A DNA stretch of 64,000 bases from Verrucomicrobiaceae bacterium E54 (GTDB lineage Bacteria > Verrucomicrobiota > Verrucomicrobiia > Verrucomicrobiales > Akkermansiaceae). Below, piece by piece: positions 7,532 to 52,638 of this stretch. How positions within the stretch are numbered: the first letter of the stretch is position 1; every line of letters starts with the position of its first letter. Location: contig JAKZES010000002.1 of the NCBI GenBank assembly GCA_022548915.1, forward strand, positions 124,001-188,000, in the 5' to 3' direction. The notes under the pieces were generated by a model that was given only the letters and a program-made list of their open reading frames with translations, was not told where the DNA came from and searched no databases. Position numbers and translations under genes: made by a program.

Positions 7532-9331
7532 ATGCACCCGAAGAAATCGTCCGGCCCGCGCCGGACGGCCAAGTCGTGCCGCCCCTTGCTGGCGGCGCTC
7601 TCCCTCGCCTGCCCTGCGCAGGCCGAGATCGAATCGGAACTCGACCCCCTGGTCGTCTCCGCGCTGCGAACACCGGTCGAGCCCGGCCTGATCACTTCGG
7701 CGGTCACCTCGCTGGACCCGCGGGATCTCGAAAAGCGCGGGGTCCTCGACCTCCGCGATGCCCTGAACGAATCGCCCGGGGTGATCTCGACCTCCACGGC
7801 GGGCCAGACCGGGGCGGCGGGATCGCTGTTCATCCGCGGCACCACCACGGCCGATTCGCAACTGATCGTCGACGGCATCCGGCTCAGTGATGCGACCACC
7901 CCGCTGGGCAACTTCCTCGCCGGGACCCGGCTCGACGACCTCGGCCGCATCGAGGTCCTGCGAGGCCCGCAGTCGGCGATCCACGGCGGGGAATCGGTCG
8001 GCGGCGTGCTGTGGCTGGAGACGGCGAACGGCCGGGACCGGCCCGGCGGACGCCTGCGGCTCGAAGGGGGCTCTTTCGACAGCCACGACGCGCACCTGTC
8101 GTACGGCGGCAGCAACGAGGCGTTTTCGTGGTTCGCCGGCATCGGCAAGGGAGGCACCCGGAACGACGCGATCGACCAGGACTTCCGGCGCTCGCGGGCG
8201 GCGCTGCGATTCGAGTGGATGCCGGCGGAGGAGGTCACGCTCGGCGTCACCTTCCGCGCGACCGACTCCCGTTTCGACTTTCCCGGATTCTTCGGCCCGA
8301 ACGTGGATGAACTCGATGCCGCCCTCGGGACGATCTATCTGGAGGCACGCCCGACGGATGCGTGGCTGGCGCGGATGACGATGGGGTATTACCGGGAAAG
8401 CTACGACAACCAGGGATTCTTCGGAAACTTCGGCACCGACCTCGACCGAACCGCGATCCACACCGACCACGTGATCGACTTTGGTCCGCACCATCGCCTG
8501 CTGGCCGGTGCGTCCTTCGAGCAGACCGACTTCTCCAACACCATCGGCACCGATGTGTCCGCCGACCGTTTCGGTGCCTACCTCGGCTGGCAGTGGCGAC
8601 CGGTCGACCGCTTCGTCACCGATGCGGTGCTGCGCTGGCAGGACGACCAGAGCTACGGCGACGAGTTCACCTGGAGGGTTGGCGCGGCGTGGGAGTTCAT
8701 CGAAGGCACCCGCGTGCGTGGCGGGATCGGCCGTGCGTTTCGCGCGCCGACCTTTCTCGACCTGTATGGGACCGCGTTCGGTGCCGGTGATCCGAATCTG
8801 AAGGCCCAGACCAGTCTCGGCTGGGACCTCGGGATCGAGCATCAACTCGCGGAGGATCATCAGCTCACGCTGACGTGGTTCGAGAACTCGATCGAGAACC
8901 GCATCCGCTCGCTGCCGACCCCGCCCGTGAACCTGCCGGGAGACACGCCGGCCCGGGGGCTGGAAACGGCAATCGATGGATCATGGTGCGACGGCCGCTA
9001 CGGCTATCGCCTGGCCTGGACCTTTCTCGACGAGTCCCTGCAGGACCAGCCGGAGCACACGGCCACGGCCTCATTCGATTGGCGCCCGCTCGATCGGCTC
9101 TTGCTCGGCGTCGGCGCGACCTACGTCGATGAGCGGAGCTACGGCGGCGCGCCGCTGGACGACTACCTGCTGCTGCGCATCTACGGCAGTTACCGTATCA
9201 GGGACCACCTCACGGTCCATGGCCGGGTCGAGAATCTCGCCGACAGCGGCTACCAACTGTCGAACATCGGCGGCACCGTGGTCGAGGGTTCGGGGCTTGG
9301 GGCCTTCGCGGGGGTGACGGCGGAGTTCTGA
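7532..9331 (+). CDS. btuB: TonB-dependent cobalamin receptor, BtuB-like
   Basis: 599 residues, a usual length for BtuB. Signal peptide about residues 1-30, ending CPAQA. A TonB-box-like stretch (DPLVVSALRTPVEP) is followed by a plug domain (LFIRGTTTADSQLIVDGIRL, then RIEVLRGPQSAIHGGESVGG) and a 22-strand barrel ending in a C-terminal phenylalanine (GVTAEF), as expected for BAM-dependent assembly. It should bind corrinoids outside the cell and pass them inward using TonB energy. The assignment is strengthened by the cobalamin riboswitch just upstream. No btuCDF or corrinoid synthesis genes are in the window. Confidence 0.9.
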   Translation: MHPKKSSGPRRTAKSCRPLLAALSLACPAQAEIESELDPLVVSALRTPVEPGLITSAVTSLDPRDLEKRGVLDLRDALNESPGVISTSTAGQTGAAGSLFIRGTTTADSQLIVDGIRLSDATTPLGNFLAGTRLDDLGRIEVLRGPQSAIHGGESVGGVLWLETANGRDRPGGRLRLEGGSFDSHDAHLSYGGSNEAFSWFAGIGKGGTRNDAIDQDFRRSRAALRFEWMPAEEVTLGVTFRATDSRFDFPGFFGPNVDELDAALGTIYLEARPTDAWLARMTMGYYRESYDNQGFFGNFGTDLDRTAIHTDHVIDFGPHHRLLAGASFEQTDFSNTIGTDVSADRFGAYLGWQWRPVDRFVTDAVLRWQDDQSYGDEFTWRVGAAWEFIEGTRVRGGIGRAFRAPTFLDLYGTAFGAGDPNLKAQTSLGWDLGIEHQLAEDHQLTLTWFENSIENRIRSLPTPPVNLPGDTPARGLETAIDGSWCDGRYGYRLAWTFLDESLQDQPEHTATASFDWRPLDRLLLGVGATYVDERSYGGAPLDDYLLLRIYGSYRIRDHLTVHGRVENLADSGYQLSNIGGTVVEGSGLGAFAGVTAEF

Positions 9332-16770: not shown

Positions 16771-19053
16771 ATGAACGCACAACAAAATTCAAAGCTTCTC
16801 CCTGACATCGCGGTGCTCACAGCCCTGATATTGGCGACAGGTCCATGGGCATCCGCCGGCACCACCGCATATCGCGACGTCATCCTCGCTGACAATCCGA
16901 TCGTCTACTACGAGTTCGACGAGACCAGCGGCACGACCGCAGCGAACTCCGCCACCACCGGCACCACCTACACGGGAACGATCAGCACGACCGGAGGTGC
17001 CGTCACCATCAATCAGTTCAGCTTCGCCCAAGGCGGAACCGCGTATGATTTCGGCGGCGGCGCGGTCTTGTCGGCAAACGCCTTGCAGAACTCGCTGACC
17101 GCATGGACCGTCGAGGCGTGGGTGAACTACGATTCGGCCAAGACCACCGCGTCGAATTTTTTGGGCAACGACCAAGGCGGTTGGAACGATGATGTCCTGA
17201 TCGGCATCGGCCCCGAGGATGGCGCCCGCGGTATCGGCCCAGGAAACGTCGGCATCATTCACCAGGACAATGCAAATACGACCCGGGATTTCGTCGGCGC
17301 CGCATTGTCCGCCGGCGAGTGGCACCATGTGGTGATCACCGGAGAGAACGGAACGGGTGCGGGGACAAGCACCCTCACCCTCTACATCAATGGCGTGCAG
17401 GTTGCCCAGAACTCGACCATTGCAGGCAACGTGACCTTCAATGGTGATGGCGGCATCGGAACGCCGAATCTGACCGTTGGTGCCGCAGGCCCTGATGCTT
17501 ATGGAGGGCGGCGCCCCTACGACGGACTCCTCGACGAAGTGGCCATCTACGATTCCGTGCTGGATGCCACCACCATCCTCAACCACTACACCGTGGGCTC
17601 ATCCACTGCGAGTGTCCCGCCGGTCATTGCCACACTCAGCCCCGCTGACGACTCAAGCGGAGTGCTCATTTCCTCGGATCTGGTCGCGACCTTCAGCGAG
17701 CCGGTGGTCTTGACCGGAAACGGCACGGTCACAATCCGAAACCTCACCCTCGGGTCGGGCTCGGACATCGTCATTCCCCTACCGGACCCGCAGGTCACGG
17801 TCAGCGGCAGCACCTTGACGATCAACCCCGCCACCGACCTCGCCGTCGCCACCAGTTATGCGATCCGGATCACGGGCGACGCCATCGAGGACGTGGACGG
17901 CGAGGCCTTTGACGGCTTACTCGACGACAACGCCTGGCATTTCGCGACTGCGGCCCCTCCCGGCCTGGTCGGCAAGTGGGAATTTGAATCCGAAGCGGGC
18001 GGGGTCACGCCCGACTCATCCGGCAACGGCCATGATGGCACCTTGGAAGGAAATGCAAACCTGACCATGGACGCGGAGCGCGGCAGCGTGCTGGAACTGT
18101 CGGGCCTCGGAGTCGATGCCGACGCGGTCGATATCGACGCCATTCTTGAAATCCCCACCCTTCCCTCGGGTCGCGGCGTGACGCTGGCGGCATGGATCAA
18201 GCGCAATGCGGACGCCTCGGCCGGAGACATCTACTCCTACGTGATCGGTCTTGGCGACAGCGGGGACATCCCGATCGTGACCCTCGGCATCGACGATGCC
18301 ACGGGTCTGGTGAAAGGCTTCATCGAGGGTGAACTCGCGGGCAATGATCAGGTCGACGTGGATGGGGACACCGTGGTGACCGATGGCGTCTGGACACACA
18401 TCGCCGTCACCTACAACCGGATCAACAACGAGGGAATCACCTACGTCAACGGGGTCGCCCAGGGAAGCCCCACCGATATCTCAGCGGCGGGTGATGGCGC
18501 CCTGGATTGGAATTTCGCGACGATCGGACGGCGGACCAATGTCAGTGGATTGGATTCCGCCCATTTCGGCGGTCTCATCGATGACGTCTGCTACTATGAT
18601 GAGGTGCTCACCCCGGCCGAGATCGCAGCGCTTGCCGAAACTGGAGGGGACAGCTTCAGCGACTGGGTCGACGGCTTCTTCCCGGGTGAGACCGATCCGG
18701 CCATCATCGGCCTGGATGCGGATCCCGATGGCGACGGCATCGACAACGGCATCGAGAACTTCTTCGGCACCCGGCCGGACCAGTTCAACCAGGGCTTGCA
18801 GGCGGCTGACGTCACCGGCAATCAGTTCACCTTCACCCATCCGGTCAGCGACAACCCTGCCACGGACCTGACCGCAGGCTACCGTTGGTCGAAGGACCTG
18901 GTGACCTTCACCCCGAGCGGCGACAGCCATGACGGCACCACCGTGACGATCACCCCGGGTGCGCCGACGGGAGGATTCGTCACCGTGACGGCGGACGTCA
19001 GCGGCACCTCGACCAGCAGGCTTTTTGTCAGAGTTGAAGTCACCCAACCGTGA
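16771..19053 (+). CDS. Secreted double-LamG protein
   Basis: 760 residues from the ATG at 16771, with a signal peptide to about residue 29. Domains: LamG (about 30-277), a Big_5 Ig-like domain (about 280-393), a second LamG (about 397-623) and a C-terminal domain opening with the calcium-site-like DADPDGDGIDNGIENFFG and running to the end. LamG 1 is paralogous to the neighbours on both sides. LamG 2 matches the sensor domain of the FecR anti-sigma, with shared blocks such as TLAAWIKRN-DASAG and ITYVNGVAQGSPTDIS. Probably a surface carbohydrate-binding protein; no catalytic site seen. Start is 38 bases after the preceding stop. Confidence 0.83.
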   Translation: MNAQQNSKLLPDIAVLTALILATGPWASAGTTAYRDVILADNPIVYYEFDETSGTTAANSATTGTTYTGTISTTGGAVTINQFSFAQGGTAYDFGGGAVLSANALQNSLTAWTVEAWVNYDSAKTTASNFLGNDQGGWNDDVLIGIGPEDGARGIGPGNVGIIHQDNANTTRDFVGAALSAGEWHHVVITGENGTGAGTSTLTLYINGVQVAQNSTIAGNVTFNGDGGIGTPNLTVGAAGPDAYGGRRPYDGLLDEVAIYDSVLDATTILNHYTVGSSTASVPPVIATLSPADDSSGVLISSDLVATFSEPVVLTGNGTVTIRNLTLGSGSDIVIPLPDPQVTVSGSTLTINPATDLAVATSYAIRITGDAIEDVDGEAFDGLLDDNAWHFATAAPPGLVGKWEFESEAGGVTPDSSGNGHDGTLEGNANLTMDAERGSVLELSGLGVDADAVDIDAILEIPTLPSGRGVTLAAWIKRNADASAGDIYSYVIGLGDSGDIPIVTLGIDDATGLVKGFIEGELAGNDQVDVDGDTVVTDGVWTHIAVTYNRINNEGITYVNGVAQGSPTDISAAGDGALDWNFATIGRRTNVSGLDSAHFGGLIDDVCYYDEVLTPAEIAALAETGGDSFSDWVDGFFPGETDPAIIGLDADPDGDGIDNGIENFFGTRPDQFNQGLQAADVTGNQFTFTHPVSDNPATDLTAGYRWSKDLVTFTPSGDSHDGTTVTITPGAPTGGFVTVTADVSGTSTSRLFVRVEVTQP

Positions 19054-41111: not shown

Positions 41112-42107
41112 CTATTCCACGGGCTCGATGGCCGGGAAGGTCCAGGTGCCATCCAGAACCTCCTTGCGCGGCTGGTAGAGCCGGATCGTGTAGTTCCAGC
41201 CTTCGGTGATGGGCAGGTAGTTCTTGGCCTTGGGGTCGCCGCCAAAATGGATCGTGTAGGAACCATCGTCGTTCGGCGTGGCCGAGGTGTTGTTGTAGCT
41301 GTTGCGATTGAGATCGTTGGCGGCGAGAAAGCCGTCGGCGTCGTAAACGGTGATCGACCAGAAGGCGTCCACCGGCACGTCCTTGACGGTGACCACATGG
41401 GGCGTCTTGCCGTCGTTCATTTCGACGGCATCGACGATGCCTTCGGCCATCGTGGCCGGTTGTCCGGCCCAGCCGGCGATCCCAATCAGGTGGCCCAGCG
41501 GGTCGATCTCGCCGCGTCGACCGAAGGAAGTGCTGGATTCGAGACCGACCACCGCCGCAAGGTCGTTGACCGCCTTCCGCGCCTTGGCAAGGGCTTCGAG
41601 GTCCCAATTCGGCGCCTCGAACGGTCCCTTTCCGCCGCCCTCGATGACGATGCCATCCTGCACCGCATGGGCCCGCGCGGCATCGTCGGGATCGCCTGCA
41701 TCGACGAAGGTGCGGAACAGCAGCATCGCGAAGCGTGTCCCGACCTCCTCCTCGGTCAGTTGATATGCTCCGGGTTTGGCATAGCCGAAGTTGTAGTGGT
41801 CCTGGCTGATGACCAGCACCGACTGGAACCGCCCGTCCCCTTTCGGCAGCTTGACCGTCACAGGCTTCGACAGATCGATGATCGCGGCGGAGTAGAATGT
41901 GTCCTGGTTGGGCCGGATCACCGTCTGGGGTTCGTTGGCGGAGGCGGCCTTGCGATCGTGGAAGAGCTCGCCGATGCCGATGTTTCTTTCCTTCATGGTC
42001 ATCCGGAACATCGTGTCGGATTCGGCGCGCACGAGGTTCTGGATCGTGATGTCCTCGGCAAAGGCGAGCGTCGGGAGCAACAGTGCGCTCAGTAGTAGCT
42101 TCTTCAT
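41112..42107 (-). CDS. DUF1254/DUF1214 secreted protein, shorter copy
   Basis: 331 residues. Signal peptide about 1-17 (ending LAFAE). The DUF1254 part includes VIRPNQDTFYSAAIIDLSKP and FQSVLVISQDHYNF; the C-terminal DUF1214 part has VPVDAFWSITVYDADGFLAA and YTIHFGGDPKAKNYLPITEG, with the final W-rich strand RLYQPRKEVLDGTWTFP. The function of this family is not established. Distantly paralogous to the next gene upstream; together with two barrel proteins they make an envelope gene set. Confidence 0.9.
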   Translation of the reverse strand: MKKLLLSALLLPTLAFAEDITIQNLVRAESDTMFRMTMKERNIGIGELFHDRKAASANEPQTVIRPNQDTFYSAAIIDLSKPVTVKLPKGDGRFQSVLVISQDHYNFGYAKPGAYQLTEEEVGTRFAMLLFRTFVDAGDPDDAARAHAVQDGIVIEGGGKGPFEAPNWDLEALAKARKAVNDLAAVVGLESSTSFGRRGEIDPLGHLIGIAGWAGQPATMAEGIVDAVEMNDGKTPHVVTVKDVPVDAFWSITVYDADGFLAANDLNRNSYNNTSATPNDDGSYTIHFGGDPKAKNYLPITEGWNYTIRLYQPRKEVLDGTWTFPAIEPVE

Positions 42108-42143: not shown

Positions 42144-43568
42144 TTACTGCGCCCGTTTCAGCGGCGGTATCGTCCACGAGCCGTCAAGGGCTTCCTTCTT
42201 GGGCCAGTAAAGACGCATCACCGCGCTGAAGGGGCCCTTGGGCGCCGGCAGCCAGTTGGCTTCCTTGTCGGTGCCCGGTGAGTCATGCTGCAGGTAGAGG
42301 GTGATTCCGCCGTCATCGTCCCGCACGAAATCGTCGAGCATGGTCGAGTTGAGCAGGTAGCGATTGATGGGGTTTTCCACCATCAGGCTTTCCGGCAGTT
42401 CGTACATCGTCAGCGACCAGAAGGAGTTGACGGGCGGCAACCGTCCCGGCGCAAACCGCAAGGTGTAACGGTGGGAGCCGTCGAGCTTCTCCCCATCGGC
42501 ATCCACGTAGTAGGACGGGTAGATCGCCTCTTCCTCGCTGTGTCCCCAGATGCCGAGAACGGCGGCGGCCATGCGATAGAGGTAGTTGTTCTTCAGATGT
42601 TCCCTGGTGCCGAAGATCTCGCCGGAACCGACCTCGCCCGCGTCGGCCCGCTCCTTCAGCGCCGCAAAGTCTGCCCAGGCATCGGCAATGCCCTGACCGA
42701 TGGCTCTCTGGACTTCAGGAGAGAACGCATCCCAATCGAAGGTCCTTCCAGCCCCGATACCGAGTCGGGCGAGCCGGGCCATGAGCTCCTTTTCGGAGGG
42801 ATGGGTGGGGCAGAACTGCAGCACGAAATTCAGCTGCTGGAATACCTCGGGTGATTTCTTGATTTCATCGCGCGTCAACGGCTCGATAAAGTTGATCGCG
42901 GGTGCGGCTTCGGGCGCCGGCTGGCCGAGAAACGCGGAGAGGGGCTGCACCTTGTAGCCGGCCTGGACGGCCTTCACGTTGTCCAGGTCGGCCGGGTTGA
43001 AGAGCTGGGTTCGGTAGACGGCGACCGCCAGTTCGGTTTCGCAATGAATCACTTTGGCAATGCCCTCGGGCACTTCGCCCTTCCACCCCGGCCCGGCGAC
43101 CAGGAAATCACCGCCATCGTTGCCTGTCGTTCGGCTTCCGATGTAGTCGAAATTATGGGTGTAAAGGTCGATCAGTTGGATGTTGAAATAGCGCTCCTTT
43201 TCAACCGGCGGCACCGTCAACACAAAGGGCTCGGTGCGCAGGTCCAGGGCCAACCAACTGTAGGGCGTATCGGAATTGGCGGTCTGCACGGCCCGGTCCT
43301 CGTGCGTGTAAACCCGCGCCAGGTTCACGAGCTGGTTGATCGGCGTCTTGTAATCAGGACTCGTCTCGTCAACGAAGGCCCCATGGAAGATGCGGTAGTT
43401 GTCCACCATCGGGTTGGCGTAGATGTATGCTTCCTTGGCGATGGCACGGGCCTCTTCGGGCGAAAGGTCGGTTGCAGCGGGTCCGGAGGCCGGTTCGGAG
43501 GAGCGGTCACAGCCGCAGACGGCGAGCCCGGCGGCGATCAGGATGGGGGTGGCGAGAATGCGTGTCAT
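42144..43568 (-). CDS. DUF1254/DUF1214 lipoprotein, longer copy
   Basis: 474 residues from the ATG at 43568; the frame continues far upstream only as a shadow of other genes. The signal sequence ends LAVCGCDRSS, compatible with lipid attachment to the second cysteine. DUF1254 (about 35-170) with PMVDNYRIFHGAFVDE and ANSDTPYSWLALDLRTEP; DUF1214 (about 355-470) with VNSFWSLTMYELPESLMVEN and LRYW-like end strand MRLYWPKKEALDGSWTIPPL. No catalytic residues can be named. 53 bases after the DUF2950 gene and 36 before the shorter copy. Confidence 0.9.
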   Translation of the reverse strand: MTRILATPILIAAGLAVCGCDRSSEPASGPAATDLSPEEARAIAKEAYIYANPMVDNYRIFHGAFVDETSPDYKTPINQLVNLARVYTHEDRAVQTANSDTPYSWLALDLRTEPFVLTVPPVEKERYFNIQLIDLYTHNFDYIGSRTTGNDGGDFLVAGPGWKGEVPEGIAKVIHCETELAVAVYRTQLFNPADLDNVKAVQAGYKVQPLSAFLGQPAPEAAPAINFIEPLTRDEIKKSPEVFQQLNFVLQFCPTHPSEKELMARLARLGIGAGRTFDWDAFSPEVQRAIGQGIADAWADFAALKERADAGEVGSGEIFGTREHLKNNYLYRMAAAVLGIWGHSEEEAIYPSYYVDADGEKLDGSHRYTLRFAPGRLPPVNSFWSLTMYELPESLMVENPINRYLLNSTMLDDFVRDDDGGITLYLQHDSPGTDKEANWLPAPKGPFSAVMRLYWPKKEALDGSWTIPPLKRAQ

Positions 43569-43621: not shown

Positions 43622-44524
43622 TCATTCGATCGTCGACTCGTCGAGGTCGTCGGCGGGGACCTCGGACCAGTTGTCGTCGGGCTGATAGGCGGTGATGGCT
43701 TCGGCAGCCTTGGCGGTTCCGGGGCCGAGGTCGCGGTCGAAGACCTTGCCCTGGTGGTTGACGATGAAGCTCATGATGCCCGACTTGCCGTAGTCGGCGG
43801 GCCAGGCGAGCATCGCGTAGCCGGCGATCATGTTGCCGTTGATGACGTAGTCGTAGGCCCCACCCGGGGCGGCGTCGCCCTGGCCGCGGAGGATCTTGTA
43901 GTAGTAGCCGTAGTAGGGGTCGCCGGGTTTTCGATCCTTGAGGTATTCCGCCTTCTCGGCGACCAGCGGACCGAAGGGGCTGGGCGGTTCGCCGGGCTCG
44001 GTTTCGAAGTAGAGTCCGTCGCGCTGGCCCTTGGTGCTGACGATGAGCTGGGCGAACTCGTTGACCTCGTCGCCGTCGTGGTCGTCGGCGGCGTAGTCGC
44101 GCTGGGCCTCGACGTAGGCGCGCAGGGTTTCGATGGCGGTGATTTCGTTGCGGCCGATGCGACGCTTGTGGATCTCGTCGAGTGCGGCGGGAAGGTCGAA
44201 GGTCCACTTCGAATCCGCGGCGACCACCGGGACCGGCAGGATGTAGCCGACGTCGCCGACCTGGATGAGCCGCTGGTCGTCGCGGGTCAGGACCTCGTGG
44301 TCGAGCTCGTAGGCCTCGGCGAAGGCTTTGAGGGTCGAGGTGGTTTCGTCGGCGAGCAGACTTTCGGCGTCGGGGCCGATGATGGTGGTGAGTGCTGCTT
44401 TGTCGCCTTCGGCGCAGGCCTTGGCGACGGCGGCGAAGGCGGCCTCCGCGGAATCGAAAGACTGCTGGGCGTTGGCCAGCGGGAGGGCGAGGGCCGCGAT
44501 GGCGGTGAGCGTGGAGTGTTTCAT
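43622..44524 (-). CDS. DUF2950 exported protein
   Basis: 300 residues. Signal peptide about 1-19 (ending LANAQ). The core matches DUF2950: FDSAEAAFAAVAKACAEGDK, IIGPDAESLL, then KRRIGRNEITAIETLRAYVE and the late PAGGAYDYVINGNMIAGYAM with MLAWPADYGKSGIMSFIVNH. DUF2950 genes are commonly next to DUF3300 genes, as here (21 bases apart). Biochemical role unknown. Confidence 0.92.
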   Translation of the reverse strand: MKHSTLTAIAALALPLANAQQSFDSAEAAFAAVAKACAEGDKAALTTIIGPDAESLLADETTSTLKAFAEAYELDHEVLTRDDQRLIQVGDVGYILPVPVVAADSKWTFDLPAALDEIHKRRIGRNEITAIETLRAYVEAQRDYAADDHDGDEVNEFAQLIVSTKGQRDGLYFETEPGEPPSPFGPLVAEKAEYLKDRKPGDPYYGYYYKILRGQGDAAPGGAYDYVINGNMIAGYAMLAWPADYGKSGIMSFIVNHQGKVFDRDLGPGTAKAAEAITAYQPDDNWSEVPADDLDESTIE

Positions 44525-44545: not shown

Positions 44546-46057
44546 TCAACGGCTGCGGCGGTTGCCGCTGGCGGCCCCGCGAGAGGAGGCGCGGTTGCTG
44601 CCGCCCTGTGGCTGGAAGGAGGAGCGGTTGGTCGGTCGAGCGGACGGAGCGGGCCTGGCCTGGCCGCCGCTGCGGTTGAGGCTCGAACTCCCTCGCTGGA
44701 GGTCCTTGCGGTTGGCCGGGGCGCTCGGGCGCGTGGCGGGCCGGAAGTTCGATCCCGGTGATGCAGCCGGGGTGCCCGGTCGAGTGGTCGGCTTGGTTGG
44801 GACAGCCGGTCGGGTCGTGGGTTTGGTGGGAACCGCCGGCCGGGTCGTCGGCTTGGTCGGCACTGCCGGCCGAGTGGTCGGGGTCCCCGGGCGGTTGCCG
44901 GGAACGGCGGGGCGGGTCGCCGGCAGCGGGGTGGGCCGGGGCGGCGGGGTGGCGAGCGGAGGACGTCCGCCACCGGGGCGCTGGGGTGGCTTGACGGCGG
45001 GCGGACGCGGGGGGCGCCAGGATCCTCCGTCGGCGGGCGGCCGCGCACCGGGGCGATCGGGGCGCAGGACCGGGAAATGGCCGGGCGGCGGGATCGGCCG
45101 TGGAGGCCGGTAGCCGGGTGGTCGCTGGCCGGGCGGCCTCCAGCCGGGAGGGTGGGGCGGACGAACCGGGGGCCGGTAGGACGGCGGCCGCGGCGGCGGC
45201 TTGTGACCGTAGTACGGACGGCCGTAGTGGTGGTGATAGTGATGGTGGTGCCATGGCTGATACCAGTGGTGGTGGTGGACGCACTTGCGCTTGCCCCAGT
45301 CGAAGGCCCAGCTCAGTCCCCAGACCACGGCGACGCCGGTGGCGAAGGTGAGGAAGGGGGCGGCGCTGGCGGTGGGCTGCTTCTCGACGTAGATCACCTG
45401 CGGCTCGTATTTGGGCACGTAGATGACCTGCGGATCGGCTGGCTCGATGCGGATGATCTCGGTCTCCTTCACATAGACCTGCTGCTGGTTGTCGGTGAGC
45501 AGGCCCTTGGCGTCGGCCCGGGTGCGGACCAGCTGGATCGCGTCGTAAACGTCGGACTCCTGATAGTAGAAGGCCTGCCCGAGGGTCATCGTCCAGTTGA
45601 TGTCCCCGGCCATCAGGTCGAGCACGTCCTTGAACTGGAGCAGCGAAACCACCGCCGGGTCCCAGGATTCGACCGCTTCAGCCGGTGGCTCCTCGAATTC
45701 CGGCTCGCGTTCGACGAACTGCTGCGCCGCGACGACATCGAGCGGCACGGTCGAGGCCGGCAGCATCTGCGCCAGCAGCTCGTCGGGGTAGAGGGCGACC
45801 GGCGCGACGATCGGCTCGAGCTGCTCCATGCCGAGCTTCTCGTAGCCGGCCTCTTCGGCGCTGACCCTCGGCGCGGGCTCGCCGGTATCCGCAGGGTCCG
45901 ACGCTTCAGAGGCGGGAGTCACGGGAGGGGCTTGGGCGGCGGCTTCGGTCGAAGCGGCCACGGCCTGGGCGAAGCCGGGGGTGGAGACCAGCAATCCGGC
46001 GGCCATGACCGTGGCGACCATTTGCTGGAGCGGTTGGGGAAAAGGCGTGGTCTTCAT
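44546..46057 (-). CDS. DUF3300 exported protein with His-rich and Pro-rich tail
   Basis: 503 residues. Signal peptide about 1-30 (ending GFAQA). The DUF3300 domain (about 70-225) has PIVAPVALYPDELLAQMLPA and VVSLLQFKDVLDLMAGDINW. A hydrophobic segment (about 228-246) precedes a histidine cluster (HHHHWYQPWHHHHYHHHYG, about 253-271) that could bind transition metals. The rest is a Pro/Arg-rich low-complexity tail with a ten-residue unit TKPTTRPAVP repeated about three times, encoded by 30-bp tandem repeats near 44785-44885. Partner of DUF2950. Role unknown. Confidence 0.88.
   Translation of the reverse strand: MKTTPFPQPLQQMVATVMAAGLLVSTPGFAQAVAASTEAAAQAPPVTPASEASDPADTGEPAPRVSAEEAGYEKLGMEQLEPIVAPVALYPDELLAQMLPASTVPLDVVAAQQFVEREPEFEEPPAEAVESWDPAVVSLLQFKDVLDLMAGDINWTMTLGQAFYYQESDVYDAIQLVRTRADAKGLLTDNQQQVYVKETEIIRIEPADPQVIYVPKYEPQVIYVEKQPTASAAPFLTFATGVAVVWGLSWAFDWGKRKCVHHHHWYQPWHHHHYHHHYGRPYYGHKPPPRPPSYRPPVRPPHPPGWRPPGQRPPGYRPPRPIPPPGHFPVLRPDRPGARPPADGGSWRPPRPPAVKPPQRPGGGRPPLATPPPRPTPLPATRPAVPGNRPGTPTTRPAVPTKPTTRPAVPTKPTTRPAVPTKPTTRPGTPAASPGSNFRPATRPSAPANRKDLQRGSSSLNRSGGQARPAPSARPTNRSSFQPQGGSNRASSRGAASGNRRSR
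44785..44885 (-). repeat. 30-bp coding tandem repeat in the DUF3300 gene
   Basis: About three and a half imperfect units encode TKPTTRPAVP-type decapeptides; drift is mainly at third codon positions. Such repeats can expand or contract by slippage. Confidence 0.75.
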
Positions 46058-46072: not shown

Positions 46073-46411
46073 CTATCTGGGGGGAGTGGCGGGCGGATTT
46101 TCAGGAACGTCCGCCCCGGTCGGGGGAGCACGGTGGACGAGGGCAGGTTCCCGGCCCGCCGGCGGACGCGGGAGGCGGCAGACGAGCTCGTGTTCGAGAT
46201 TCACGCGGAGTTCGCAGTATTGCTCGATCCGGTCATCGGCCCCTCCCTGTCCCCTGCGCAATTGGTCGAGCATGGCGACGCATTCGGCGTAGTCGTTGCA
46301 GAGTTCGCGGAATTCCTCATCTTCATGAAAGAGCTGACGGATCGCCGCTTCCGACCGGGGTTGAAGCATGAGCACCGGATCAGGTGGCTGGGCGGGCTCC
46401 CCGGTTCTCAT
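46073..46411 (-). CDS. Small helical protein, first gene of the DUF3300 operon
   Basis: 112 residues from the ATG at 46411; the open frame reaches 46480 but that part covers the operator-like site. The N-terminal 75 residues are helical with FHEDEEFRELCNDYAECVAM and IEQYCELRVNLEHELV; the tail is Pro/Ala-rich. No signal peptide. I do not know a named family, though small proteins of this kind look conserved. 15 bases before the DUF3300 gene, so it probably leads the operon. Confidence 0.65.
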   Translation of the reverse strand: MRTGEPAQPPDPVLMLQPRSEAAIRQLFHEDEEFRELCNDYAECVAMLDQLRRGQGGADDRIEQYCELRVNLEHELVCRLPRPPAGREPALVHRAPPTGADVPENPPATPPR

Positions 46412-46439: not shown

Positions 46440-46472
46440 CACGGCCAAGTAACGCGGGGTAACTTACGGTCA
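46440..46472 (-). promoter_or_regulatory. Shared operator-like site A
   Basis: Read on the minus strand it is TGACCGTAAGTTACC (46472-46458), followed by four bases and GTTACTTGGC. Site B at 50482 has the identical 15 bases followed by five bases and GTTACTGGC. The GTTAC boxes are 10-11 bases apart, one helical turn, as expected for a tandem-binding winged-helix regulator. It sits between the divergent operon (start 46411) and regulator gene (start 46543). Confidence 0.6.
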
Positions 46473-46542
46473 TTGACCATCGCTCGGTTGCTTGCCTAGG
46501 GTCCGTGCGATGAGTGCTGGTTAAGGTCTCACCATTTTTCTC

Positions 46543-48135
46543 ATGCCCTCAAGCAGCCGCCAGCGTCAGAATGGAAAGCCGCCCGACAGGCAGGCCGTCG
46601 AGGAGCAGTTGGATCGGGTCACGGAGAGTCCGGAGTTCGACACGAGCCAGCGCTCGGTGGATTTCCTGCGATTCGTGGTGGGCGAGGTGCTGGACGGGCG
46701 CTCGCAGATGATTTCGCAGCAAGCCATCGCCGGCAGCGTGTTCGACCGCGGGGATGAATTCGACCCGACGACCGACCCGATCGTCCGCATGCAGGCGGGG
46801 CGGGTGCGCCGCTCGATCGAGCACTACTACCTTACGGCGGGCGTTGCCGACCCGGTGTCGATCCAGCTGCCGAAGGGCTCCTATGTGCCCACCTTCGAGT
46901 GGCGGGAGTCCTCCTCCGGAGCGCTTCAGCCGATCGATCCGGGAGACGTGCCGGCCACCGACCCCTGGCCGACGCTTCTCGTTTCACCGCTCCGCAACCT
47001 GACAGGGCGGCCTGAAGTTGATTTCGTCGCCGAGGGTCTCGCTTCCGACCTCTCCGCAGAGTTCAGCCGCGACCAGGCGCTTCACGTCTTCCGTGGTCCG
47101 GTGGCCGGAGAACGGCCGGGTCGGGCCGACGAAGCGCGCTTCCGCCTCGGAGGCACGATCGTGGCACGGAATGACGGGCTGAAACTCACCCTGGATCTGA
47201 TCGACGGCGAAAGCGGCCGACAGGTCTGGGCCGAGACGTTCCTGTGCCCGGAGGGGCCGGAGCAGGCTTGTCGATTGGAGAAGGTGGTTCACACCACGGT
47301 GGCGATGGTGGCGGAGGAGCAGGGGTTCCTGTCGCGACACCTCGGCGGAGAGTCGCGCCGGGATCCCGCTGCCGGCGGCAGCGCCTACCAGGCCATCCTT
47401 CGCTACCTGCACTTCGATGTGACGAACGATCCGGCGGCGTTTGTCGAAGCGTTCGCCGCCCTCCGCCAGGCGGTGGATGCGGATCCCGAGTGTGCGGTGT
47501 GCTGGTCCTATCTCGCCCGGCTCGGCGGGGCGCATTGGAGTCTCGGGCTGCCCGGAGAGGTCCTGCCGATCGAGGAATCGCTGGCGGCGGCCCGGCGCGG
47601 CGGCGGCCTCGCCCCCCGGGACGTGCGCTGCCGTTCCATTCTCTCCTATCTGTTGCTGCTCGTTGACGAGTTGGACGAGGCGCTTGGTGAGGCGGAGGCC
47701 GCGCTCGAAGTCAATGGAACGTCCATGTTCTGGCTGGATGTGATCGGATATCTGCTCACGCTGTCCGGCGACTGGGAAAAGGGGCCGGCACTGCTGAGAC
47801 AGGCGCTGGAGATCAACCCGTTCCCGCGGCGGGCCTGCTACGGTGCCCTGTGGCTGGACGGCTTGATGCGGGACGATCCGGCGGCGGCCCTCACCGCCGC
47901 CCGTGAGTATGCCCCGGAGTCCTACTTCTGGAGCCCGCTGATGGAGTCGGTGGCGCTGGCCGCCGATGGGCAAACGGAGGAGGCAGCCGCCGCGGCGAAG
48001 CGCCTGCTGGAGATGAAGCCGGACTTCCCCGAGCGCGGACGCTGGTTGATCACCCGCTACGTGAAACCTCCGGAGATGGTGGAAATGATCGAGCGGTCAC
48101 TGGCGGAGGCTGGCGTCAGTTTTCGCGCAGGTTGA
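46543..48135 (+). CDS. Regulator-like protein with winged-helix-like N-terminus and TPR repeats
   Basis: 530 residues. The N-terminal 115 residues (VDFLRFVVGEVLDGRSQMIS, IAGSVFDRGDEFDPTTDPIV, then VRRSIEHYY and QLPKGSYVPTFEW) match a recurrent domain in Acidobacteria and related phyla that I read as a divergent winged-helix-like DNA-binding module; this is an inference. A TolB/FlgO-like domain (about 140-270, TLLVSPLRNLTGRPEVDFVAEGL) and a TPR region (about 280-525) follow. It is divergent from the DUF3300 operon and is the obvious candidate to act on operator-like sites A and B. Its last 20 bases overlap the hydrolase gene tail to tail. Confidence 0.72.
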   Translation: MPSSSRQRQNGKPPDRQAVEEQLDRVTESPEFDTSQRSVDFLRFVVGEVLDGRSQMISQQAIAGSVFDRGDEFDPTTDPIVRMQAGRVRRSIEHYYLTAGVADPVSIQLPKGSYVPTFEWRESSSGALQPIDPGDVPATDPWPTLLVSPLRNLTGRPEVDFVAEGLASDLSAEFSRDQALHVFRGPVAGERPGRADEARFRLGGTIVARNDGLKLTLDLIDGESGRQVWAETFLCPEGPEQACRLEKVVHTTVAMVAEEQGFLSRHLGGESRRDPAAGGSAYQAILRYLHFDVTNDPAAFVEAFAALRQAVDADPECAVCWSYLARLGGAHWSLGLPGEVLPIEESLAAARRGGGLAPRDVRCRSILSYLLLLVDELDEALGEAEAALEVNGTSMFWLDVIGYLLTLSGDWEKGPALLRQALEINPFPRRACYGALWLDGLMRDDPAAALTAAREYAPESYFWSPLMESVALAADGQTEEAAAAAKRLLEMKPDFPERGRWLITRYVKPPEMVEMIERSLAEAGVSFRAG

Positions 48136-49759
48136 GCAGCAGGATCCGCTTGACCTCTTGGATCGCTTCCGGGCATTTCGGCACGTTGTGGTCGGAGGGC
48201 ACGATCAACTCGCTGTCCACTCCGTCGAGATGGGAGGACCAGTACGGTACGACGCCGTCGGAGCTGTCCGGGGTGTCGCTTCGGCCGCGGTCGCCGATGA
48301 CCGAGTGGAGGTGGACCCCCTTTCGAAATGGCAGGTTTGGCACGATCTGGAACAGGGGTCGTCCGGGCTGCAGCGCCTCGATCCCGGTCGGCAGGCGGAT
48401 GTTGCGGCCACGGAACCTCAGGCTCTCCTCCGCCGAGACCAGGTCGGGATCGGTGAGGGCGGCGGCATTGCGGACGAGCAGGTCGGGGATCTCGACGGTA
48501 AGCAGCTTGGGGAGCCGGATGAGCCTCGACGCCAGCATCGCGAGTGAGTGCTCGGCCAAGGGACTGCCGCGGTGGGGGGCGGCCAGGAAAACCGCGCGGC
48601 GGACGCAGGGCAGCGGTTCCCACAGGAACACCTCGCGGAGCAGCTCCCGTTCCTTCGGGGTCACATCGAGTTGATCCATCGGCTTCTTGATGAATGTGGA
48701 ATACACGGCATCCCCCGGGTCACGCAGACTCGCCTGGGTGATCAGCGCTCCCTTGGAGTGGGCGACCACCACCGTCTTGTCCAGATGCCGGCAACCCTCC
48801 TCACGGGCGTAGGCGAGCGCGGCGCGGAAGCTCTCGCGAAAGCGTGCGGCCGCCAGGCCCCAGGGAACCCCGGTCGGATAGCTGTAGACCCACAGCTGGT
48901 AGCGGCTGCGGATGTCCCCGTCGGCGATCAACTCGTTGATCATCCGGTCAAAGACGTCGGGGCTCGACTTGAGTCCGTGGACCAGTACCAAGGGGATCCG
49001 GTCGGGGTCCGGCGGCCGGGTGAAGAAGATCCCCTCGATCCGTTGCAGGCGCTGCGGGAGGAGGACGTTCTGGATCGTGGTGCGGTCCAGTCGGCTCATC
49101 TCCCAGTACAGGGCGTGGGCGGCGGACCAGTCGCTGCGGAGCGGATGATGGACGCCGCCGACGCGGATGAGTTCGGAGTTGAAGGGTTGGCGGAACTGCC
49201 AGACCGGTGTGGGTCCGCGGTCGAAGCGCAGGATGGCGGTGGCGGTGGCGGTGATGCCGGCGGGAGGCGGAAATCTCGCCCTATCGTAGAGGGGCAACTC
49301 GTCCTCGATCCAGCCGACCAACGGCAGTCCGATGCCCGAGGCGAGCTGGCGCTCACCGAGGCGCCGGGTGTCGACCTTGGAGGCGGGAAACACGACGCCG
49401 AGCAGGGCGGGGTCGAGATCGCCGGGGCCCGGGTCGGCCAGGCGGGTGCCCGTGGTGGCGGCGGCCTTCTTCCAGTCGCTGCCGGCCCGGCGGAGGTCGT
49501 CGAAGGCGGCGGCGACGGCTTCGTTGTAAGCCTCGCCCGCGGCGGGCCAGTCGGCGTCCCGACCGGGGTCGGCGAGGATCTTCCAGGCGGACCCTGCGGC
49601 GGCGAGGGGGGCCTCGATGCGATGGTCGCCGGGGGCGGCGGGCGGGCGCATGTAGGGTGCGACCGTCGGCGCCCCGCACCCCGCCAGCAGCACGGCGGCC
49701 AGCACGCCGGGGCCGGCGGTGCGAAACCGGACAGGCAGCAGCCGGAACCCGCGCATCAT
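48116..49759 (-). CDS. Alpha/beta-hydrolase lipoprotein (lipase/esterase-like)
   Basis: 547 residues. Lipobox LLAGC near residue 28. The C-terminal half has the hydrolase core: IPLVLVHGLKSSPDVF (oxyanion region), nucleophile serine in VVVAHSKGAL, and FLAAPHRGSPLAEHSL. SDGVVPYWSSHL and the final SDHNV supply the likely acid and histidine. The N-terminal 230 residues are unassigned but contain a barrel-like middle part. Probable outer-membrane-anchored lipase or esterase. It is 10 bases after the SYLF gene and probably cotranscribed. Confidence 0.85.
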   Translation of the reverse strand: MMRGFRLLPVRFRTAGPGVLAAVLLAGCGAPTVAPYMRPPAAPGDHRIEAPLAAAGSAWKILADPGRDADWPAAGEAYNEAVAAAFDDLRRAGSDWKKAAATTGTRLADPGPGDLDPALLGVVFPASKVDTRRLGERQLASGIGLPLVGWIEDELPLYDRARFPPPAGITATATAILRFDRGPTPVWQFRQPFNSELIRVGGVHHPLRSDWSAAHALYWEMSRLDRTTIQNVLLPQRLQRIEGIFFTRPPDPDRIPLVLVHGLKSSPDVFDRMINELIADGDIRSRYQLWVYSYPTGVPWGLAAARFRESFRAALAYAREEGCRHLDKTVVVAHSKGALITQASLRDPGDAVYSTFIKKPMDQLDVTPKERELLREVFLWEPLPCVRRAVFLAAPHRGSPLAEHSLAMLASRLIRLPKLLTVEIPDLLVRNAAALTDPDLVSAEESLRFRGRNIRLPTGIEALQPGRPLFQIVPNLPFRKGVHLHSVIGDRGRSDTPDSSDGVVPYWSSHLDGVDSELIVPSDHNVPKCPEAIQEVKRILLLNLREN

Positions 49760-49769
49760 TCCCGGGTCC

Positions 49770-50405
49770 TCACGGATTGAGCGCTCGGATCGGCGAGAAC
49801 CGCCGGGTTTGGTAGGTCACGCCGTAGGACAGGCCGGAATCGGTGAGCGTGTAGGCCTTGAAGCCCTTCCCCGGGCTGGCGACCCCGCCGACCCCGGCCC
49901 CGAGGTCATCCTTCTTCACGGTGGCCTCCGCGGCGGCCCCCGAATCCCACTTGCCGGTCTTGAACTTGTCGAACACCTCGCGGTCATCGAAGACGAAGAC
50001 CACCGAGTTCTCCTTCACGCCCATGCCCCAGCCCCAGTTGAGCTTCTGAACCTTCATGTAGGTCCGCGCCTCGTCCGATGGGTCAACGGCCACGCCGTAG
50101 CCGGCCCCGCCGCCCAGTCCGCCAAGCACGATCGGCAGCTTGCCCGAGGTGTAGCGGAAGGCCGCGTAACCTTCGGCGGAAGCAATCTCGCCCCCGGCTT
50201 CGGGCGAACTTTTCTGCAAATCCTGGAGGATGCGGGAGGCCTCCTTGTCGATGAAGGTCCGCTTCTCCGCGTCGGTCGATCCTTCGGGGTTCATCGACGC
50301 GCACTGGCAGGCGAGGCATGGAAGGGCGATGGCGGCAAGAAAACGCAGGCCCCGGCCCCGGAGGGTCGATGGCAGGATGTTGATGGAGATTGTGAGATGA
50401 GGCAT
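49770..50405 (-). CDS. SYLF-domain (YSC84-related) lipid-binding lipoprotein-like
   Basis: 211 residues. The signal sequence (about 1-33) ends in a cysteine-rich CLACQCAS, perhaps a lipobox. The mature part matches the SYLF/YSC84 fold: GEIASAEGYAAFRYTSGKLP, GGAGYGVAVD, TYMKVQKLNWGWGMGVKENS and FVFDDREVFDKFKTGKWDSG. SYLF domains bind phosphoinositides and other lipids. It begins 76 bases from operator-like site B and precedes a lipase-like gene, suggesting a joint envelope-lipid role. Confidence 0.82.
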   Translation of the reverse strand: MPHLTISINILPSTLRGRGLRFLAAIALPCLACQCASMNPEGSTDAEKRTFIDKEASRILQDLQKSSPEAGGEIASAEGYAAFRYTSGKLPIVLGGLGGGAGYGVAVDPSDEARTYMKVQKLNWGWGMGVKENSVVFVFDDREVFDKFKTGKWDSGAAAEATVKKDDLGAGVGGVASPGKGFKAYTLTDSGLSYGVTYQTRRFSPIRALNP

Positions 50406-50481
50406 GGGGCGTGATCGGGTCCTGGTTCCGTGACGATGGTGTTGAAAGATTTGGCACAGTCAATGCCGCCGACGGGGTTAG

Positions 50482-50509
50482 TGACCGTAAGTTACCTTCG
50501 TGTTACTGG
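50482..50509. promoter_or_regulatory. Shared operator-like site B
   Basis: TGACCGTAAGTTACC (50482-50496), five bases, then GTTACTGGC; the first 15 bases equal site A read on the opposite strand. It lies in the divergent gap between the SYLF gene (start 50405) and the fumarylacetoacetase-fold gene (start about 50566), so it could serve either or both. Confidence 0.6.
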
Positions 50510-50565: not shown

Positions 50566-51621
50566 GTGACCGTGACATCGCCAACAGCTGCCGATCCCGA
50601 ACGGCAGGTGCCCCATTGCCCTCTCCCGGCGACGCGAGGGATCAGGTGGGGACGAATCGTGCTCGGGATCGTGGTGCTGGCCGTGGCGGCATTGCTCTAC
50701 CACCTGTTTCGGCCGCTGCCGGTGACGCCGGTCCCGGCGGTGTTTCACGAGTATGACCTCGGGGAGGGCCGCTTCGTGGCACTCGAGCCTCCATCCGAGG
50801 TATTCGGTGTGGGGCTGAGTTATGCAAAACACATCGAGGAGACCGCATCGGACTTCGATCCTCGCTCGGGACCTCCCATTTTCCGCAAGCACCCGCGTGC
50901 GGTCGTCGGTTCCGGATCGATCGTGATGCTTCCCGGAGCCGGGGCGCTGGCATCTGCAGTCGAGGGGCTCGAGCCGGGAATCACAGAGAAACTCAAGGCG
51001 GAAGACCTGCAGCTGAGCTGCCTGCTTGATTACGAAGGCGAACTCGGCTTCGTTTTGCTGGAGGATGTCGATCCGGTCGAGCTCGGCCGGCAGGATTTCG
51101 TTCCGCAGATCGGTTTCTTCATCGCCAACGACTTGTCGGCCCGCTCGATTGCCATCCTCGGCGAGGGCATGGCGAACCGCTACGACTACTGGGGACTCTC
51201 AAAGAGTTTTCCCGGCTTCATGCCGGTGGGTGGACGGGCCTGGATCCCCGACGTGCCCGTGGCCAACGGCATCCCACCGGTGATCATCGAAACGAAGGTC
51301 AATGGCGAGAATCGCCAGCGGCAGGTCGTCACCGAACTCGTCTACACGCCGCGGCAGATGCTGCGTTTCATCCATGAGACCTACCCGGACCAGCCCTTGG
51401 GGAAGGGGATGATGGTTCTCACCGGCACGCCGGGCGGGGTGGCGCTGAAGAGCCCGCGTTGGAAGGTCCGTCTCGCCAACGCGATCGGCATGAGCCGCTT
51501 CACCAAGCTTTCGATCAAGCAGGACGGCGACACCACGCAATTTCTCAAGCCCGGGGACGAGGTCACGGTGAGCGGTGGTCCGCTGGGATCGGTGACCGTG
51601 ACCATCGCCGACGGAGATTGA
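50566..51621 (+). CDS. Membrane-anchored fumarylacetoacetate hydrolase-fold protein
   Basis: 351 residues from the GTG at 50566; the open frame reaches 50500 but would overlap operator-like site B. An N-terminal transmembrane helix (about residues 28-48, GRIVLGIVVLAVAALLYHLF) is unusual for this normally soluble fold. The FAH domain follows: LSYAKHIEE, then LLDYEGELGFVLL (metal-ligand glutamates), FIANDLSARS and VLTGTPGGVAL. Likely a C-C bond hydrolase or isomerase of acylpyruvate-like substrates facing the periplasm or held at the membrane. Leads a plus-strand run of hydrolase genes. Confidence 0.82.
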   Translation: MTVTSPTAADPERQVPHCPLPATRGIRWGRIVLGIVVLAVAALLYHLFRPLPVTPVPAVFHEYDLGEGRFVALEPPSEVFGVGLSYAKHIEETASDFDPRSGPPIFRKHPRAVVGSGSIVMLPGAGALASAVEGLEPGITEKLKAEDLQLSCLLDYEGELGFVLLEDVDPVELGRQDFVPQIGFFIANDLSARSIAILGEGMANRYDYWGLSKSFPGFMPVGGRAWIPDVPVANGIPPVIIETKVNGENRQRQVVTELVYTPRQMLRFIHETYPDQPLGKGMMVLTGTPGGVALKSPRWKVRLANAIGMSRFTKLSIKQDGDTTQFLKPGDEVTVSGGPLGSVTVTIADGD

Positions 51622-51645: not shown

Positions 51646-52638
51646 ATGTCTTCTTCAGAATCCCACAGACTCATGCACTGCCGCCATTTCCTGCTGACCT
51701 GCCTGGTGGTGCCGCTTCTCTGCCACTGTGGCTCGTCACCCGACCCCGGTCCGACGGCCGCGCAGATTTCCGAGCGGCTCGGCAAGCTAGAAACCGGCAC
51801 CTTCGCCGGAGCGGATGACAAGGAGATCGCCTACGTGGTGCAGCGGCCCGCGCGCCTGAACCCGCGCCGCGCCGCGTTTCTTTATCTCCACGGCATCGAA
51901 AGCCACGGCGGGTGGTTCGACCTGGCAGCCGGGCAACTGGCCCGGCGCGGTTATCCGGTCTTCAGCATCGACCGCCGCGGCAGCGGGATCAACCGGGAGA
52001 ACCGCCATTTCACATCGGGACATGTCGAAAGCGGAGTGCGCCTCGTCGATGACGTCCAACGGGCGGTCGCGGCCGTGAGGGCTTCCGGCAAGTTCGACGA
52101 GATCTACCTGATCGGCCTGTCGTGGGGAGGAAAGTATGTGATGGCCTATGACGTGGCTCATCCCAACCAGATCGACGGCATGGTGCTGGTCACGCCCGGA
52201 ATGAAGCCCAAGGTTGATCTAACCGTTCCACAAAAGGCGGCGGTGTTCGTCGACATGGTCTTCGCTCCCGAGCGTCAGCATCCGGTGCCGATCGAGACCG
52301 AGATGTTCACCACCGACCCGGATCAACTCGCCTACATCCGGAACGACCCTCTCCGGTTGCACACCGTTTCCGCCGCGTTCCTCAAGGAGAGCATCCGCAT
52401 GGACCGGATGGTCGAGCGCAGCGAGGATCGGGAATATCCACCTCTGCTACTCTTTCTCGCGGGCAGGGACCGCATCATCGACAACGAGGCAACGCGTGAA
52501 CTGGTCACCCGCGATCCGCAGCGACCGGTGAAGATCGTCGAATACCCCGAGCAGACCCACTCGATCCAGCTCGACGCCCCCGACCGTCTCGCCCGCGACA
52601 TGATCCGCTGGATCGACACGCTGCCCCGAAAGCACTGA
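51646..52638 (+). CDS. Alpha/beta-hydrolase lipoprotein (S33-like)
   Basis: 330 residues from the ATG at 51646, 24 bases after the preceding stop; the ATG at 51673 gives a shorter, cleaner signal sequence (HCRHFLLTCLVVPLLCHCG) and may be the real start. Lipobox-like LLCHC. Hydrolase motifs: FLYLHGIESHGGWF, nucleophile GLSWGGK (serine near residue 165), an aspartate in LAGRDRIIDN and a histidine in PEQTHSIQL. Similar to monoglyceride lipase or serine aminopeptidase S33 proteins. Substrate unknown. Confidence 0.85.
   Translation: MSSSESHRLMHCRHFLLTCLVVPLLCHCGSSPDPGPTAAQISERLGKLETGTFAGADDKEIAYVVQRPARLNPRRAAFLYLHGIESHGGWFDLAAGQLARRGYPVFSIDRRGSGINRENRHFTSGHVESGVRLVDDVQRAVAAVRASGKFDEIYLIGLSWGGKYVMAYDVAHPNQIDGMVLVTPGMKPKVDLTVPQKAAVFVDMVFAPERQHPVPIETEMFTTDPDQLAYIRNDPLRLHTVSAAFLKESIRMDRMVERSEDREYPPLLLFLAGRDRIIDNEATRELVTRDPQRPVKIVEYPEQTHSIQLDAPDRLARDMIRWIDTLPRKH

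Follow-up and report, generated by a model that had tools for sequence, protein, structure and literature searches.

A conserved tandem site beside the gene for a predicted OmpR-fold regulator in Verrucomicrobiota

HilA/EilA and CadC join a winged helix to a TPR or TolB-like region. Among regulators of the OmpR/PhoB type, PhoP recognizes repeats of 7 bp that are separated by 4 bp, which makes 11 bp, and the OmpR/PhoB sites known so far are all said, in the same paper, to be direct repeats (PMC4832192). The CpxR box is given in another source as GTAAA-N5-6-GTAAA (PMC9600279). As to the genes that concern us here, a third paper describes DUF3300 and DUF2950 as universally co-localised in root-nodule bacteria and as induced in two symbiosis transcriptome studies, and states that neighbours and databases give no functional hint (PMC4653623). 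Among the papers listed in our literature search, none is a study of the regulator-like protein described below, REG, or of its site.

Two identical sites among divergent genes

The window, by which we mean the whole stretch of 64,000 nucleotides that was analyzed, contains two exact copies of TGACCGTAAGTTACC, at 46458-46472 (minus strand) and 50482-50496 (plus strand), as had been noticed in an earlier sequence-only reading. Each copy is part of a longer site, A or B, and the sites lie among the following genes.

41112..42107, minus strand: DUF1254/DUF1214 protein
42144..43568 (start approximate), minus strand: DUF1254-type protein, named by tblastn similarity to DUF1254-annotated genes in rhizobial records and not by a Pfam scan
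43622..44524, minus strand: DUF2950 protein (PF11453, E 2.3e-98)
44546..46057, minus strand: DUF3300 protein (PF11737, E 5.8e-49)
46073..46411, minus strand: small protein with a FREL-C-(N/D)-D stretch, whose gene opens the divergent set
46448..46472, minus strand: site A, TGACCGTAAGTTACCCCGCGTTACT, with box starts at 1, 11, and 21; it lies 36 bp upstream of the start of the small gene and 70 bp upstream of REG
46543..48135, plus strand: REG, the proposed regulator; its N-terminal domain is predicted to be a winged helix, and its C-terminal region is TPR-like (TPR matches below Pfam cut-offs)
48116..49759, minus strand: lipase-like protein (so named in the sequence-only reading; no Pfam family at E 0.001)
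49770..50405, minus strand: SYLF-type lipoprotein (below curated cut-offs), divergent from FAH and behind site B
50482..50507, plus strand: site B, TGACCGTAAGTTACCTTCGTGTTACT, with box starts at 1, 11, and 22; it lies 58 bp upstream of the start of FAH and 76 bp upstream of SYLF
50566..51621, plus strand: FAH-fold protein (PF01557), the gene to which site B points
51646..52638, plus strand: alpha/beta hydrolase, which probably belongs to the FAH transcription unit

The small gene probably starts at 46411 and not at 46480. No sigma-70-type promoter was recognized in the surroundings of site A, and no RNA family matched at E 1 between 46000 and 51000.

As had also been described, the 15-mer is followed by GTTACT, 4 bases on at site A and 5 bases on at site B, and then by TGGC or GGC. 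The proposed spacing of 10-11 bases between GTTAC boxes holds as well, but the sites have three boxes and not two: an upstream TGAC is the third, giving T(G/T)AC starts at 1, 11, and 21 (A) or 22 (B). The central GTAAGTTAC of the site is also a small palindrome. When up to 3 mismatches were allowed, the sole match to the 15-mer in the window beyond sites A and B was a 3-mismatch one at 18869, while shuffled sequences gave a mean of 0.35 matches, and none of 100 shuffles reached 3.

Occurrence in the genome, family, and phylum

In the 5.9-Mb genome (G000), TGACCGTAAGTTACC has 3 exact copies, compared to 0.011 expected with uniform bases, and every one of them lies in the gap of a REG gene itself or less than 3 kb away. 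The third copy, at G000:C23:3138 on a 3.7-kb contig, is located between a REG paralogue and a small-gene paralogue, after which a DUF3300 gene starts. This paralogue and the REG of the window, 64% identical, are the only two REG homologues found in the genome (E 0.001), and the site is present in the divergent gap of each. A whole-genome search for the two-box pattern with N6 spacing and up to 3 mismatches returned one extra, unconvincing match. The earlier statement that the 15-mer occurs nowhere else is therefore correct for the window and not for the genome, which holds the C23 copy and a 1-mismatch copy at C218:19375 (L035:8371-8385, minus strand). The latter is without a good second box and lies 91 bp before a GltS-like transporter gene, on a contig that also carries paralogues of the DUF1254 pair of the window; it keeps the first part of the site only and was excluded from the site counts.

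Counting sites A and B, the C23 copy, two sites in G014, one in G001, and one in G619, seven Verrucomicrobiota sites from four genomes could be compared. All seven have T(G/T)ACCGTAAGTTAC(C/G)-N4/5-GTTACT in common and follow the layout T(G/T)AC-N6-TTAC-N6/7-TTAC, with half-sites 10-11 bp apart; at the sequence level, all are thus direct repeats with a period of about 10-11 bp. Their orientation is equally uniform: in 7/7 copies, the site faces the small gene (window A, C23, G014), FAH (window B, G014, G001), or, in G619, a gene whose product looks exported when judged by eye, with REG or SYLF at the back of the site. Since site B points at FAH, this gene appears to be a better target than the SYLF-lipase pair, for which a link is possible. 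The sequence-only reading had named both, and orientation favors its FAH half, the SYLF-lipase pair lying behind the site; its "envelope" label suits part of the gene set and not the remainder.

In the family, the two-box pattern was found in 3 of 260 genomes (G000, G014, G001), with all 6 matches at homologous gaps, and the reversed control gave 9 matches in 8 other genomes. In the phylum sample, 4 of 387 genomes had the pattern, with 6 raw matches versus 17 for the reversed control (17 by our own count from the table). The raw counts are lower than those of the reversed control, and the case depends on where the matches fall and not on their number. A relaxed pattern, GTTACC-N5-GTTACT with 2 mismatches, was uninformative (58 matches versus 176 for the reversed control). 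The phylum matches in G625 and G724, which have no TGAC box and no REG match at E 1e-5, were taken as chance; in G724, nonetheless, the two GTTAC boxes are present 11 bp apart, and a T comes next.

Location does link the site to REG. A close REG occurs in 2 of the 387 phylum-sample genomes (G000 and G619), both of which are among the 4 pattern genomes (Fisher P 8e-5). The REG N-terminal profile matches 5 of the 387, 2 of them with the pattern; the other three have a distant REG domain only and no pattern. Altogether, four close REGs were found, one of them in another family, and the site adjoins REG in 4/4. G014 has the whole arrangement, with REG, small gene, DUF3300, and DUF2950, and lipase, SYLF, and FAH on the other side. 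G619, from the other family, encodes a 59%-identical REG and has the full site in the gap just after this gene, the 600 bp upstream of REG being without one. No core was found upstream of the distant REG homologues of G029, G006, and G427, and G753 has a 1-mismatch core upstream of its distant homologue. G001, a 90%-complete assembly, has a perfect two-box site in the SYLF/FAH gap, and neither protein nor profile search detected REG in it.

SYLF orthologues of at least 70% identity were present in 3 of 116 genomes (G000, G014, and G001), all three with the site. Invariant columns amount to 22/29 in site A versus 74/277 around it (three sequences) and to 24/29 versus 117/272 for site B, where the closest pair only gives a weak contrast (25/29 versus 169/272). 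The site is thus kept at loci orthologous to those of the window (G014, G001, G619), and its low copy number in genome, family, and phylum is not that of a dispersed repeat; the shared-site observation is real, conserved, and useful.

In G619, REG is flanked on both sides by near-identical 144-aa exported-looking proteins (L153:3401-3835 and 8275-8709), one of which follows the site.

REG and its homologues on rhizobial plasmids

The longest invariant run among three close REG homologues, FDPTTDPIVRMQAGRVRRS, is located in the N-terminal domain. AF2 predicted this domain with a pLDDT of 95.1, as four helices followed by two strands. In VIA-align, applied as a second look at 393 Foldseek candidates, rows 1 to 18 were all of the OmpR/PhoB type, the best being SaeR (Z 7.2, rmsd 3.5, 89 aligned), and a Z below 8 is middling according to the tool's own note. 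Foldseek alone returned nothing at E <=0.001 for the N-terminal domain, and a search of the PDB by sequence found no REG relative. Among eight REG members, Trans_reg_C matched one weakly (E 0.053), and DUF3736, an unrelated-looking family, matched three (best E 0.0036). By its predicted fold, the N-terminal domain of REG resembles an OmpR/PhoB-type winged helix; the sequence evidence for OmpR-type membership is thin. The confident model covers this domain only, a full-length model made without an alignment being useless (pLDDT 44). The C-terminal part of the window REG has weak TPR matches below Pfam cut-offs, and the L160 homologue has TPRs above cut-off together with weak FlgO and TolB_N matches. 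Pfam scans of REG gave no receiver domain, and those of the window REG and the L160, L174, and L153 proteins gave no cyclase domain. The suggestion that a tandem-binding winged-helix protein is encoded from 46543 agrees with the predicted structure and with the way the site tracks REG homologues.

Judged by eye, the winged helix of the L174 homologue (L174:4794-6707) seems to be followed by a membrane-spanning stretch, a feature of CadC/ToxR-type regulators; the window REG seems to be without it.

REG homologues were found in 301 of 72,556 plasmid records, mainly rhizobial, the best covering up to 97% of REG at about 29% identity in tblastn. We hand-picked 24 alphaproteobacterial loci from the 301 records, and these loci form 15 clusters by gap similarity. 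S. meliloti pSymA carries an exact CGTAAGTTAC directed at a small gene, after which come DUF2092, a hypothetical gene, and two DUF1254 genes, an arrangement that resembles the window. A core within 1 mismatch of CGTAAGTTAC is present in 10/24 REG gaps and 4/15 clusters, compared to about 1% per gap in shuffles; this count rose from 7 to 10 gaps once corrected start positions were used for four loci that are from S. meliloti or similar to it. Among all gapped 7-mers of the form 4-N3-3, CGTANNNTAC occurs in the most upstream gaps (16/24, with 8/24 lacking it), in many cases close to DUF1254 or DUF3300/DUF2950 genes; by clusters, it is found in 7/15, and two GC-rich patterns that are common everywhere rank higher. 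The degenerate form of CGTANNNTAC and the 1-mismatch threshold were picked after viewing the S. meliloti gap, and the P values are to that extent post hoc. The extended pattern CGTANNNTAC-N6..8-TAC was found 7 times in plasmid REG gaps and 5 times elsewhere in the loci, versus 0 and 3 for the reversed pattern, and none of 300 letter-shuffled patterns reached 7 in the gaps. A second TAC at 10-11 bp accompanies 7/17 core occurrences in the gaps versus 5/28 outside.

The core follows the gene content of these loci: 9 of the 10 loci with DUF1254, DUF3300, or DUF2950 in the fetched stretch have the 1-mismatch core, versus 1/14 of the others. L176 and L177 themselves carry DUF3300 and DUF2950, the L177 core having 2 mismatches. 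In some rhizobial loci, a gene divergent to REG encodes a relative of the small protein (best E 2.5e-5, L160/L163; others weaker). Relative to REG, both orientations of the core are found. Since Pfam scans of L160 and L174 contain no cyclase domain, the "adenylate cyclase" annotation of these plasmid homologues looks wrong.

Two further features were observed in these loci. L160:9001-11106, and likewise L163, L179, and L180 (S. meliloti pSymA region), have two successive REG N-terminal matches; in L160, a single annotated gene contains both, as though its winged helix had been duplicated. In L166:9379-9830, a small-protein relative and an alpha/beta hydrolase flank two operator-like sites, which are at a distance from REG and similar to window site B.

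Candidate mechanism, rival binders, and known systems

What computation establishes is the site with its conservation and orientation, its association with REG loci, and the predicted fold. With a probability of roughly 0.78, we propose that sites A and B are tandem operators of REG, a one-component OmpR-fold regulator of the divergent DUF operon and the FAH set. The N-terminal winged helix of REG, similar to OmpR/PhoB DNA-binding domains, would bind both sites, its copies sitting head-to-tail on T(G/T)AC boxes 10-11 bp apart, one per helical turn, and the TPR-like part would probably sense a ligand or a partner. From site A, REG would control the divergent small-DUF3300-DUF2950-DUF1254 set and probably also itself; through site B, it would act on the FAH-hydrolase set and, perhaps, on SYLF-lipase. 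That REG is the binder is our inference, and so would be any statement on how many copies bind, on activation versus repression, or on the signal.

The main objection to REG as the binder is G001, where the site is present and REG was not found, so that the site might be bound by a different protein of the OmpR type. The chief rival is a CpxR-like protein, for example, a response regulator encoded elsewhere, REG being a mere neighbor, and we regard this as improbable though not far-fetched. The other strand of the site reads GTAAC-N5/6-GTAAC, with a spacing equal to that of CpxR, and among the genes listed under CpxR in the source that gives the CpxR box is the DUF3300 gene yacH of E. coli (PMC9600279). 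However, both repeats are GTAAC in 7/7 sites, with C instead of A as the fifth base, so that the spacing agrees with the CpxR box and the sequence does not. Furthermore, the site turns up, in several genomes and in two phyla, with the REG paralogue, with orthologues, and with remoter homologues, and there is no response regulator among the annotated genes of the window.

It is very unlikely that the element is instead a core promoter for an alternative (ECF-type) sigma factor. Such a promoter would agree with its directionality in 7/7 copies, its location 36 bp before the small-gene start, and its one-base spacing variation, but twelve contiguous invariant bases plus GTTACT exceed what -35/-10 elements, which are short, usually require. 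The boxes with their 10-11 bp period and the plasmid core in either orientation relative to REG also argue against it, and we noticed no gene for a sigma factor within the conserved cassette. An open frame from 46480 does traverse site A, yet coding conservation in that frame, like chance similarity or a dispersed repeat, is hardly credible: the C23 and G014 copies differ from A by one base of spacing and so lose the frame, neither site B nor the G001 copy falls within a gene called in its region, the 3 exact genome copies compare to 0.011 expected, and the N6 two-box pattern had just one extra match. These readings were rejected on copy number, location, and frame-breaking spacing.

Returning to REG as the binder, a wider reading, which we put forward tentatively and would not yet favor, unites REG, its CGTA-N3-TAC tandem operator, and the small FREL-C-(N/D)-D protein in a single cassette common to Verrucomicrobiota and rhizobia. 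This cassette would switch the DUF1254, DUF3300/DUF2950, SYLF, and hydrolase genes together as an envelope programme, and the small protein would act as a partner of REG or modulate it. The similar sites next to REG relatives in nitrogen-fixing bacteria of another phylum point to a shared switch for several genes, whose putative functions are partly in the cell envelope. A short operator with its regulator, also in S. meliloti pSymA, would offer a handle on when and why DUF3300/DUF2950-type genes are switched on, and the assignment of REG would correct the "adenylate cyclase" annotation on several rhizobial plasmids.

Compared to described systems, REG is similar to HilA/EilA and CadC in combining a predicted winged helix with a TPR or TolB-like region. 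The HilA/EilA model NF009037 matches L174 (E 1e-5, at 24.1 bits far below the curated cut-off of 589) and the G619 REG (E 0.0022), in both cases after the winged helix, and L174 matches CadC at E 0.025; the window REG matches neither HilA/EilA nor CadC at E 1, and both systems differ from REG in gene neighborhood and site. With the OmpR/PhoB response regulators (PhoB, PhoP, CpxR), REG shares the predicted DNA-binding fold and head-to-tail boxes at 10-11 bp, and since the sites of these regulators are said to be direct repeats, the candidate REG site fits. Unlike REG, in which none was found, they have a receiver domain, and the candidate site differs from theirs in its three boxes and GTA-N3-TAC core. 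The rhizobial plasmid genes annotated as adenylate cyclase are of the same family as REG by tblastn, with the related CGTANNNTAC upstream in 16/24 loci. What is new, therefore, is an unnamed regulator family, its candidate operator, and its link to several DUF families in two phyla; the kind of regulator is already known.
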